Of a DNA stretch of 64,000 nucleotides, positions 32,632-35,154 are shown in pieces. Location of the stretch: positions 1 through 64,000 of the forward strand of contig NZ_CDBZ01000068.1 of assembly GCF_000819985.1 (NCBI RefSeq), read 5' to 3'. The position numbers were made by a program, and so were the translations under genes. The notes beneath the pieces were generated by a model. The model searched no databases, was not told the DNA's origin, and saw only the letters and a list, made by a program, of their open reading frames with translations. Origin of the DNA: Aeromonas media. GTDB taxonomy: Bacteria; Pseudomonadota; Gammaproteobacteria; Enterobacterales; Aeromonadaceae. How positions within the stretch are numbered: the first letter of the stretch is position 1; every line of letters begins with the position of its first letter.

Positions 32632-32748
32632 CTATCAGCCGTGCTTGCGACCGCAGTGTTGCCGCCGCAATAGCTGCTTTCTATCAGCCGTCTTTGTGAC
32701 CGCAGGCATCAAGATGACGGTCTCTATCAGCCGTGCTTGCGGCCTGAG
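32632..32748 (-). repeat. Three direct repeats of the prmA 3' end
   Basis: About 25 bases repeated at 32632-32656, 32681-32705 and 32724-32748. The third copy contains the real prmA stop. Read on the minus strand each ends in CAAnnACGGCTGATAG and would encode (S/C)G(R/H)K(H/D)G then stop. Offsets are 43 and 49 bases, not multiples of three, so they are not one continued frame. They look like decayed extra copies of the gene's end. Confidence 0.75.
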
Positions 32749-33605
32749 AGGCGACACCACTCTTCCTTCACCGCGGTCGGGTCCATGTCGAACCACTGGC
32801 TGTAGATGGTCTCCAGCTCCGGGGCCTGGCTCTCCAGCACGCCGGAGAGCGCCATCAGGCTGCCGGGCTTGCCGTGGCCGGCGATGAGCGGCGCCAGCTC
32901 GCGCAGCGGGCCGGCCAGTATGTTGGCCACCACCACGTCAGCTTCGACGTCTTGCGGTTGGTCGGCAGGCAGGTAGAGTTCGATCTGGCCGGCGACGCCG
33001 TTACGTTCGGCGTTGTCATGGCTGGCCTGGATGGCCTGCGGGTCTATGTCGATGCCGATGACCCGGGCGGCGCCGAGTTTCAGGGCGGCGATGCCGAGGA
33101 TGCCGGAGCCACAACCGAAGTCGACCACCGTCTTGCCGGCCAGATCCAGCCCATCCAGCCACTGCAGGCAGAGCGCTGTGGTGGGGTGGGTGCCGGTACC
33201 GAAGGCCAGGCCCGGATCCAGCATGACGTTGACCGCATCGGGATTCGGCACGTCGCGCCAGCTCGGGCAGATCCAGAGCCGCTCGCCGAACTGCATCGGG
33301 TGGAAGTGATCCATCCATTCCCGCACCCAGTCCTTGTCCTCCAGCTGCTCGACCTTGTAGCCGACGTCTTCCCCGAAGATCTGCTGGAAGAAGGCGATGG
33401 TGGGAGCCGGGTCGGTTTCGGCATCGAACAGCCCCATCACCTCGGTCTCACCCCAGAGCGGCGTTTCACCAGGCAGTGGCTCGTAGACGGGCACATCCTG
33501 GGCATCCATAAAGGTCACCGCCTGGGCTCCACGCCCCAGCAGCATGTTGCTCACCTTGTCCGCAGTCTTGGCGGTGGCGTTGATTCGAATTTGTATCCAG
33601 GGCAT
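32727..33605 (-). CDS. prmA: Ribosomal protein L11 methyltransferase
   Basis: Uses S-adenosylmethionine to trimethylate ribosomal protein L11. The 292-residue length matches PrmA. An N-terminal substrate-binding domain ([19 protein letters not shown]) is followed by the methyltransferase domain with [33 protein letters not shown] (AdoMet site) and [10 protein letters not shown]. In enterobacteria it follows panF directly; here about 4 kb separates them. A likely promoter has -10 TAGAAT (33644-33639) and -35 ACGACA (33667-33662). Confidence 0.96.
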
Positions 33606-33645
33606 GGGGTCGACTCTTCATAAATGTGAAACCGCGGGATTCTAT

Positions 33646-33682
33646 CATCATGGGCCTGTGCTGTCGTGGTTTGCCCATGATG
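33646..33682. promoter_or_regulatory. 10-bp perfect inverted repeat, possible activator site
   Basis: CATCATGGGC (33646-33655) and GCCCATGATG (33673-33682), 17-base spacer. It overlaps the likely prmA promoter on one side and lies 30-66 bases upstream of the first sigma-54 -24 element on the other. That is a usual place for an enhancer-binding activator. A single CCCATGATGG also occurs at 34066-34075. Confidence 0.45.
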
Positions 33683-33711
33683 GGATGGGGAAGGAAGGCA
33701 ACTCTGCCAAG

Positions 33712-33728
33712 TTGGCACGGTTAATGTA
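33712..33728 (+). promoter_or_regulatory. Sigma-54 (RpoN) promoter 1
   Basis: TTGGCACG-GTTA-ATGTA: a perfect -24 element TTGGCACG and a -12 of ATGT for consensus TTGC, with correct 10-base spacing after GG. Transcription should start near 33739. Confidence 0.6.
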
Positions 33729-33738
33729 TTCCTTACTG

Positions 33739-33827
33739 GGTGACGGGAAGCAACTTGTTCCCGCTGAATGCTTTGCTCTATGAAGTTCCGTCATCTTTTT
33801 CAGCCACCTTCGGGTGGCTTTTTTTAT
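33739..33827 (+). ncRNA. Candidate sigma-54-dependent small RNA 1
   Basis: About 89 bases from the predicted sigma-54 start to an intrinsic terminator (GCCACC-TTCG-GGTGGC then seven T, 33802-33826). No ORF of note. A hairpin CGGGAA...TTCCCG can form near the 5' end, and alternatively TGACGG could pair with CCGTCA further down. It does not carry the conserved Qrr core of vibrios, nor resemble GlmY/GlmZ as I know them. Confidence 0.55.
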
Positions 33828-33871
33828 GCCGGTGCGCTGAAAAACGGTCATTTTGCGGATAAAAGCAGACA

Positions 33872-33888
33872 TTGGCACGCAATCTGCA
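33872..33888 (+). promoter_or_regulatory. Sigma-54 (RpoN) promoter 2
   Basis: TTGGCACG-CAAT-CTGCA: perfect -24 element and a -12 CTGC with only one mismatch to TTGC, spacing GG-N10-GC exact. Stronger than promoter 1. Confidence 0.7.
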
Positions 33889-33898
33889 AAGTTCCACA

Positions 33899-33979
33899 TG
33901 TCCTGCATAAGGATATGTGTGTGATTGTTACCCCAACGTTCAGGTTTTAAGGGCCATCCCGGCGGGATGGCCTCTTTTT
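33899..33979 (+). ncRNA. Candidate sigma-54-dependent small RNA 2
   Basis: About 80 bases from the predicted start to an intrinsic terminator (GGCCATCCC-GGC-GGGATGGCC then TCTTTTT, 33952-33978). The 5' end can fold as CAT-TCCT...AGGA-ATG. The unpaired middle TTGTTACCCCAACGTTCAGG is a possible target-pairing segment. No ORF. It sits in tandem with candidate 1 and shares the promoter class but not the sequence. Confidence 0.6.
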
Positions 33980-34137
33980 ATGGTTTTTTCGGGGGAAGGG
34001 CCCGTCAGGGGCACAGATCGGCCGTGGGGCTGTGCACTCTTGGGGCTTGTCACTGGTGATTTCACCCCATGATGGTGCATTTTTTACCTATAAGGGAATA
34101 GGTCGCATGGCTGTGGGGATCCCTGGCTGCAAGGACC

Positions 34138-35154
34138 TCAGCTGGCAAAGCTGCTCATGTCGATCACCAGCTTGCCCACCATACGGCCCGCCTCCAGCTC
34201 GCTATGGGCCTGTGCCAGGCTGGTCGGAGTCAGTTCGGGCAGGGTGCGAGTGAGCGTGCTCTTGAGCACCCCTTGGTCCAGCAGGGCGGCGACCCGGCCG
34301 AGCAGCTTGTGCTGCTCGATCATGTCCGGGGTCTGGAACAGGGAGCGGGTAAACATGAACTCCTGGCTGAAGGTGACGCTCTTGGCCTTGAGCAGGCTCA
34401 GATCCCAGGGCTCGCTGGATTCGGCAATGGTGCAGATGTGACCGAAGGGGCGAATGAGGCTCGCCATGGCGGCCCAGTGCTGCTCGGTGGCATTGGTGCA
34501 GAAGATGGCATCGAGCTGGCTGATGCCAAGGCCGGCCAGCTCTTCCTGCAGGTTGTGATGACTCACTACCTGGTGGGCGCCCATGGCCAGGCACCAGTCA
34601 CGGGTTTCAGGTCGGGAGGCGGTGGCGATCACCTCCATCCCGGTGAGCTGACGGGCCAGCTGGATGGCGATGGAGCCGACGCCGCCGGCGCCACCTATGA
34701 CAAGCAGTCGCCCGGTACTTTCGCGGTTGAGGCCGATGCGCTCGAACAGGGTTTCCCAGGCGGTGATGGCGGTCAGGGGCAGGGCGGCGGCTTCCAGGTC
34801 GCTCAGGGTCTTGGGGGCGAGGGCGGCGATGCGCTCATCCACCCGTTGTAGGGCGCTGTTGCTGCCGGGGCGGCTGATGTCGCCGGCATACCAGACGCGG
34901 TCGCCCGCCTTGAACAGGGTTACCTCGTGGCCGACCGCCACAACCTCTCCGACCGCATCCCAGCCCAGCACGCGGGGCGTCGCCTCCACCTTGGCCTTGG
35001 GGGCGCGCACCTTGGTGTCCACCGGGTTGACCGAGGTTGCCGTTACTTTCACCAGCAGATCCCGTGGGCCCGGGGTGGGATCCGGCAGTTCGGTCTCGAT
35101 GAAGCAGTGGGGGTGATCGCTTGGCAGATAATGGGTGAGGGCAATGGCTTTCAT
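34138..35154 (-). CDS. Zinc-type alcohol dehydrogenase/quinone oxidoreductase family protein
   Basis: NADPH-dependent medium-chain dehydrogenase of 338 residues. N-terminal GroES-like domain (VKVTATSVNPVDTKVR, GWDAVGEVVAVGHEV) and a Rossmann domain with VIGGAGGVGSIAIQLARQL. The cysteine/histidine zinc ligands of true alcohol dehydrogenases are not seen, so it more likely reduces quinones or enones. The ATG at 35154 has the good ribosome-binding site GAAAGGAA. Divergent from a LysR regulator, 100 bases away, which probably controls it. Confidence 0.88.
   Translation of the reverse strand: MKAIALTHYLPSDHPHCFIETELPDPTPGPRDLLVKVTATSVNPVDTKVRAPKAKVEATPRVLGWDAVGEVVAVGHEVTLFKAGDRVWYAGDISRPGSNSALQRVDERIAALAPKTLSDLEAAALPLTAITAWETLFERIGLNRESTGRLLVIGGAGGVGSIAIQLARQLTGMEVIATASRPETRDWCLAMGAHQVVSHHNLQEELAGLGISQLDAIFCTNATEQHWAAMASLIRPFGHICTIAESSEPWDLSLLKAKSVTFSQEFMFTRSLFQTPDMIEQHKLLGRVAALLDQGVLKSTLTRTLPELTPTSLAQAHSELEAGRMVGKLVIDMSSFAS

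Follow-up and report, generated by a model that had tools for sequence, protein, structure and literature searches.

Introduction

Where their role is known, small RNAs driven by sigma-54 occupy the top position in quorum-sensing, carbon and cell-envelope circuits, and to our knowledge each such case is found in one lineage. In Vibrio the Qrr loci (RF00378; LuxO and RpoN) occur up to four per genome, with promoters of the form AAGTTGGCAC. The Vibrio LuxO operator, which we take to be TTGCAWWWTGCAA, precedes two of four Qrr loci in exact form and the other two in nearly exact form. CrcY and CrcZ of Pseudomonas (RpoN; CbrB) are paired sigma-54-dependent RNAs. The glmY and glmZ genes of enterobacteria are not adjacent, and models for GlmY/GlmZ and CrcZ are contained in Rfam. 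According to the available part of the source, glmY and GlmZ are two sigma-54-controlled RNAs of one genome (PMC3162934).

For Aeromonas, no report of sigma-54 small RNAs was found in the open-licence literature without supplements, judged by titles and abstract starts among the matches listed. As far as the accessible part of the paper tells, non-coding RNAs of Aeromonas salmonicida were predicted from Rfam models (PMC8780938), and because it is based on these models this approach would have missed the pair of RNA genes described here. In the accessible part of another paper Aeromonas is mentioned only for aerolysin (PMC8764538). The DNA analyzed here, called the window, is a stretch of 64 kb from Aeromonas media, and its features are listed in Table 1.

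Table 1. Features of the tandem RNA locus and its neighbours in the window.
Feature	Position	Strand	Remarks
prmA (ribosomal protein L11 methyltransferase)	32727..33605	-	divergent neighbour; Pfam PrmA, 342 bits
P1	33712..33727	+	sigma-54-type -24/-12 element of sRNA1, TTGGCACGGTTAATGT; -12 is TGT
sRNA1 gene	33739..33825	+	predicted start to end of T run, 87 nt; covariance model R2
sRNA1 motif 1, CTTTGCTC	33771..33778	+	candidate seed; invariant in 24 rows of alignment A1
sRNA1 motif 2, GTTCCGTCATC	33785..33795	+	candidate seed; TCCGTCA common to 15/15 representatives of six clades
sRNA1 intrinsic terminator	33802..33825	+	stem 33802-33819 plus T run; stem kept via paired changes
P2	33872..33887	+	sigma-54-type -24/-12 element of sRNA2, TTGGCACGCAATCTGC
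sRNA2 gene	33899..33979	+	predicted start to end of T run, 81 nt; covariance model R1
sRNA2 5' hairpin, GTCCT-GCATA-AGGAT	33900..33914	+	TCCTG...AGGA in 18/18 rows of alignment A3; longer stem in three
sRNA2 GU-rich stretch, ATGTGTGTG	33915..33923	+	candidate seed; TGTGTGT invariant in A3
sRNA2 TTCAGG motif	33939..33944	+	invariant in A3
sRNA2 intrinsic terminator	33951..33979	+	stem 33951-33973 plus T run; stem sequence replaced, pairing kept
Zinc-type alcohol/quinone dehydrogenase gene	34138..35154	-	convergent neighbour; Pfam

Results

Two Sigma-54-Type Promoters in Tandem

The original prediction held that two perfect -24 elements, each with a -12 element at the right spacing, occur on one strand about 160 bases apart. 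Both elements are found where they had been placed, 160 bp apart on the forward strand, with the layouts TTGGCACG-GTTA-ATGT for P1 and TTGGCACG-CAAT-CTGC for P2. The word perfect fits both -24 elements and the second -12 but not the first -12, which reads TGT in all 32 genomes with the pair beside prmA, where the consensus has TGC. Transcription starts are predicted at 33739 for sRNA1 and at 33899/33900 for sRNA2. In the 64-kb window the strict pattern TTGGCACGNNNNNTGY matches P1 and P2 and nothing else, against 0.10 matches expected, and none of 100 shuffled sequences holds two. The looser pattern TGGCACN6TGY has four matches in the window against 2.12 expected and is by itself not significant, since 15 of 100 shuffles reach this count. 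In the whole genome of origin TTGGCACGN5TGC is matched four times and a reversed control twice, which indicates a modest whole-genome specificity. The decisive evidence beyond chance is conservation and not pattern counts.

A search at the DNA level gave matches in 36 of 37 Aeromonas genomes, some of which covered no more than the prmA flank or a terminator. Once the sequences had been oriented and aligned, both promoters and both RNAs are present at the prmA locus in 32 of the 37. In all 32 the -24 element of P1 is TTGGCAYG, and P2 has YTGGCAYR at -24 and TGC at -12; the distance between P1 and P2 ranges from 146 to 215 bp. A -24/-12 promoter with conserved spacing, as is characteristic of sigma-54-dependent small RNAs, is thus found for both genes, the first with TGT at -12. 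The covariance models match 32 of the 37 genomes of the genus, R1 at E < 1e-14 and R2 at E < 1e-12.

Weak covariance-model matches in three further genomes (G009, G027, and G029) proved to be the same pair with its promoters, kept with small changes, displaced from prmA. With 32 copies at prmA and three displaced ones the pair is present in 35 of 37 Aeromonas genomes. A lack of conserved -24/-12 elements in the rest of the genus had been named beforehand as the refuting outcome; both elements are instead kept at prmA in 32 of 37 genomes and in the three displaced copies as well.

Changing Neighbours of the Pair

Because both flanking genes are encoded by the opposite strand, neither RNA is the leader of an adjacent gene. 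To the left of the displaced copies lies a gene for a glutamyl/glutaminyl-type tRNA synthetase, recognized by Pfam in two and by a sequence motif in the third, which is presumably gluQRS. On the right side the order dehydrogenase-LysR-PTS is found in G009 and G029, and in G027 a PTS gene was the only one of these found in the 5 kb fetched. The position between prmA and a dehydrogenase gene, as first described, is thus correct for the window, but prmA is incidental, being replaced in the three displaced copies, two of which retain the dehydrogenase.

With both models and strict filters no copy was found in two of the 37 genomes, G021 and G006. In G021 (L194, G021:C101) prmA is directly followed by dehydrogenase and LysR gene remnants, ahead of the PTS gene, as if the pair and most of these two genes had been lost by deletion. 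The remainder of the 30.7-kb contig of G006 contains no homologue of the dehydrogenase, LysR or PTS gene. Second, weak R2 matches away from the locus occur in G032, G008, and G019, and weak matches are also seen in G428 and G434. The promoter pattern is absent from the weak matches of G428, G434, and G032; it also misses P1 of G027 and G029. An R1 match at G029:C11 appears beside 5S/tRNA-like DNA and has no promoter match.

In 20-base blocks, conservation is 0.57-0.66 between the genes and 0.54-0.57 just past them. The start and promoter region of prmA (33599-33678) reaches 0.93-0.98, equal to the RNAs. An inverted repeat, CATGGGC-N17-GCCCATG at 33649-33679, adjoins the divergent prmA promoter. 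An altered form of it occurs in G006, where neither RNA was found, and most genomes with a displaced pair have no such repeat upstream of prmA; its possible role as an enhancer is therefore not decided by this distribution. A further, partly conserved stretch, GGGGCTTGTCACTGGTGA...CACCCCATGATGGTGCATTTTTT, fills part of the gap from the sRNA2 terminator to the stop codon of the dehydrogenase gene (34029-34090).

Outside the genus, R1 has no match at E up to 0.1 in the 38 non-Aeromonas genomes among 75 of the family; weak R2 matches occur in two of the 38 and lack a promoter match. Among 369 genomes of the class R1 matched the genome of origin only, under strict filters. A pattern for the 5' end of sRNA2 gave 29 matches in a species-wide genome collection, 25 in Aeromonas and four elsewhere, and no such promoter is found in the 45 bases preceding these four. 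As far as searched, the pair appears to be restricted to Aeromonas.

Structure of the Two RNAs

From the 5' end, sRNA1 consists of a variable part, CUUUGCUC, UUCCGUCAU, a U-rich stretch and the terminator. The 5' part varies by clade and is absent from three genomes; in 20-base blocks its conservation is 0.72, and that of the core 0.89-0.92. Motif 1 reads CTTTGCTC in two of the displaced copies and CCTTGCTC in the third. The spacing of the two motifs varies and in some genomes hairpins are inserted between them, as is expected for RNA seeds. The fold of sRNA1 is better than that of 200 out of 200 shuffles (z -3.6). In its consensus structure 99.6% of cells pair and 12 cells are doubly changed against 3.4 in shuffles, and the number of base pairs with a double change is two, no more than in shuffles. 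In predicted folds some clades have largely unpaired motifs, and in the clade of the window the motifs pair with the variable 5' part; in the species of the window the UCCGUCA motif has a mean unpaired probability of 0.01. This clade-dependent pairing could reflect gating of the seed or a shortcoming of the folding model. The U-rich stretch before the terminator and the 3' U tail are present in sRNA1 and weaker in sRNA2.

In sRNA2 the 5' hairpin is followed by the GU-rich stretch, UUCAGG and the terminator. Mean conservation is 0.97 over 33899-33918 against 0.73 over the preceding 20 bases, and this step coincides with the start that the promoter predicts; over its first 40 bases the RNA shows 0.97-0.98 in 20-base blocks. 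The 5' hairpin is part of the minimum-energy fold in 15 of 18 sequences. The fold as a whole is weaker than that of sRNA1 (z -2.1, with 6 of 200 shuffles folding equally well), and covariation barely tests the 5' hairpin because it hardly varies except in the three displaced copies.

Each promoter had been described as being followed by some 80-90 bases free of open reading frames and by a strong terminator, and indeed both units comprise about 85 nt of ORF-poor sequence that ends in an intrinsic terminator. In sRNA2 the pairing of the stem is kept although its sequence is replaced (GGGCCATCCC/GGGATGGCCC, AGGCCATTTC/GAAATGGCCT, and GGACTGGCC/GGCCAGTCC). Most stem changes with pairing kept are found in the displaced copies, and the terminal T run counts 4-9 across both RNAs. 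At the level of sequence, both genes therefore show the short non-coding unit with intrinsic terminator that marks sigma-54 small RNAs. The 35 genomes have no reading frame in common that is closed inside the transcript. For sRNA1 there is none in 20 of the 35 and the commonest, of 13 codons, occurs in seven; for sRNA2 frames of 0-18 codons with changing sequence are found. A small protein encoded by either transcript is not supported by the frames closed inside the transcript.

The two RNAs are not clearly alike in sequence: in four of five pairs the likeness does not exceed the shuffled mean and in one it reaches the 5% level, and the R1 and R2 models each recover their own RNA and not the other. 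At gathering scores, Rfam has no match in the whole 64-kb window. At E up to 5, five subthreshold matches were obtained between 33400 and 34300, none of them to Qrr, GlmZ or CrcZ. The best, to isrD (E 0.2), was rejected, as it scores 20.6 bits against a gathering score of 37 and its alignment rests mainly on the terminator; RyhB was likewise discarded, with 16.1 against 55 bits. The suggestion that this could be a new pair, with sequences unlike those of Qrr, GlmY/GlmZ, and CrcY/CrcZ, stands, because the Rfam scan matched none of the known families.

Activators and Targets

In the genome of origin the sigma-54 activator domain has ten strong and three weak matches. NtrC, TyrR, and DhaR exceed the NCBIfam cut-offs, and PspF, LuxO, and GlrR are named by best matches that fall short of the cut-offs; the PspF gene is cut by a contig end. 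Further proteins are presumably FlrA, FlrC, VpsR-like and PrpR/AcoR-like, labels that we assign from general knowledge and weak matches. A GAFTGA-type loop is kept in FlrA, NtrC, FlrC, LuxO, PspF, and the PrpR/AcoR-like protein; the VpsR-like protein has GAFTDA, and in TyrR, DhaR, and the GlrR-like protein the loop is absent. The LuxO-like protein carries GSFTGA and scores 658 bits with the NCBIfam LuxO model (its best match; cut-off 800). The GlrR-like regulator (L121:1093-2382, contig C220) retains the Walker A motif. Lacking the GAFTGA loop, which contacts sigma-54, it is probably unable to activate sigma-54.

Sites for LuxO, GlrR, NtrC, PspF or CbrB, as defined by consensus sequences known to us, are not conserved upstream of the pair in the genomes with the prmA locus. 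NtrC-like matches with two or three mismatches are few and scattered there. The GlrR site has the consensus TGTC-N10-GACA, and with up to one mismatch no conserved site was found at the prmA locus. Exact TTGCAN3TGCAA is absent upstream of P1 and P2 in the prmA-locus genomes; inexact matches are scattered ones with two mismatches and a single one with one mismatch in L025, which overlaps the -12/start region of P1. LuxO is therefore unlikely to activate the pair. A search for shared words around P1 in 15 representatives of six clades, displaced copies included, yielded no conserved enhancer site. The 7-mers common to all six clades are those of the promoters, the two sRNA1 motifs, the T run and CAAACCA, the last occurring at non-corresponding places between clades.

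Targets were searched as exact complements of 11-12 bases in eight genomes. ACACACAYATCC, the complement of the sRNA2 hairpin/GU stretch, matched the RNA gene itself only, except for two further matches in one genome. GATGACGGAAC, the complement of sRNA1 motif 2, gave 26 scattered matches in seven of the eight genomes, the RNA gene included, and no conserved target at a start codon. Duplexes with the starts of the prmA, dehydrogenase, LysR, and PTS genes and among the RNAs themselves were little better than shuffled (best z -1.7; mononucleotide shuffles, one species). These failed searches exclude only long perfect pairing.

A Third RNA Gene Marked by the LuxO Operator

The genome of origin contains no exact LuxO operator match. 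The operator is present in 23 of 37 Aeromonas genomes, and 16 of the 23 loci fetched are one orthologous place. All 16 show a -24 element TTGGCAYR whose -12 partner (TTC) is weak, and then an RNA-like stretch, TACAACCCGATTTATCCCGTGCTCTCTTCAG..., followed by a terminator. In L182 this third sigma-54-type RNA gene lies at 1440-1680 (G023:C1 near 3041664), flanked by a gene with a LON-substrate-binding domain and one for a hybrid histidine kinase. It has TTGCAAAATGCAA-like operators upstream and a strongly conserved core of about 78 nt. Its 15 orthologues are L167, L168, L170, L171, L173-L175, L177-L179, L181, L183, L185, L187, and L188. At E up to 1, Rfam has no match at six of these loci. Among 247 genomes drawn from the order, the Rfam Qrr model (RF00378) scores above its cut-off in 13. 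These all belong to a single different family, and the 13 Aeromonas genomes included in the 247 give no match. The third RNA is a candidate for the missing Aeromonas equivalent of Qrr, and this by-product of the analysis may matter as much as the pair.

Discussion

Promoters, terminators and conservation together support the view that the window holds two tandem sigma-54-dependent small-RNA genes. We regard it as probable that 33712-33979 comprises two independent, unrelated genes, each with its own RpoN promoter and terminator, whose products act in trans by base pairing through the candidate seeds. One enhancer-binding protein, probably not LuxO, would drive RpoN polymerase at P1 and P2, yielding transcripts of about 87 and 81 nt. 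These would pair imperfectly with their targets, probably with Hfq, sRNA1 through CUUUGCUC and UUCCGUCAU and sRNA2 through its 5' hairpin and the GU-rich stretch. By analogy, trans-acting pairing with mRNAs is the likeliest function. A more tentative and rather doubtful extension is that the locus works as an Aeromonas-specific switch with a dual output, in which one enhancer-binding protein fires both RNAs and which, as a unit, changed its upstream neighbour. If true, this switch would join the third, LuxO-marked RNA in a set of sigma-54 RNAs specific to the genus that takes the place of Qrr and GlmY/GlmZ. As the pair is present in nearly all Aeromonas genomes examined, it offers two targets for knock-out and RNA-interactome work.

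The sRNA1 motifs might instead be DNA sites of an enhancer-binding protein, serving P2 and, from downstream, P1, so that sRNA1 itself would have little function as RNA. In the window their distance upstream from the P2 start is about 105-130 bp, which is usual for enhancers, and no other conserved enhancer site was found. However, the two motifs are not mutual inverted repeats, they change in spacing and are separated by inserted hairpins in some genomes, and P1 and the paired terminator are kept on either side of them, which makes this explanation unlikely. That the pair is the Aeromonas counterpart of the Vibrio Qrr RNAs, with LuxO-P and RpoN driving both for quorum sensing, is quite unlikely. 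The LuxO-like protein with GSFTGA in the genome of origin, the failure of the Rfam Qrr model to exceed its cut-off in any of the 13 Aeromonas genomes drawn and the close resemblance of Qrr promoters (AAGTTGGCAC) to P1 and P2 would fit it, but at the prmA locus exact TTGCAN3TGCAA is not found upstream of either promoter, and in 16 Aeromonas genomes the exact operator marks the other sigma-54-type RNA gene, a much better Qrr candidate.

Binding of sRNA2 to CsrA/RsmA or another RNA-binding protein, in place of pairing with mRNAs, is suggested by AGGAUGU in several sRNA2 sequences, which resembles the CsrA consensus ARGGAUGU. CsrA sponges carry several GGA in loops, whereas the sRNA2 core has a single GGA, which 15 of 18 minimum-energy folds place in the 5' hairpin stem, and we consider such a role very unlikely. 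It is hardly credible that the promoters are chance or relic elements in untranscribed intergenic DNA: two of 37 genomes show no copy and the looser promoter pattern is not rare, but conservation is strong, with sharp boundaries and a varying spacer, and the pair survives in three genomes with a changed upstream neighbour.

Compared with the described systems, CrcY/Z are longer, homologous to each other and equipped with repeated A-rich Hfq sites. The Aeromonas pair differs from them in having no Rfam match and, by the consensus known to us, no CbrB-like site at the prmA locus. With GlmY/GlmZ of enterobacteria (RpoN, GlrR) it shares the presence of two sigma-54-controlled RNAs per genome, as given in the available part of PMC3162934. 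GlmY is homologous to GlmZ according to a title cited there, in contrast to the Aeromonas pair, which also has no Rfam match. The Vibrio Qrr RNAs (LuxO and RpoN) differ in sequence; the pair has no Rfam Qrr match and no LuxO operator at the prmA locus, and sRNA1 and sRNA2 are not clearly related to each other. The pair resembles Qrr in the shortness of the RNAs, in nearly identical -24/-12 elements and in having a 5' hairpin and a terminator. The mode of action of the pair is probably that of the known sigma-54 small RNAs; new here would be the pair itself, its restriction to one genus as searched and the tandem arrangement of two unrelated RNAs.
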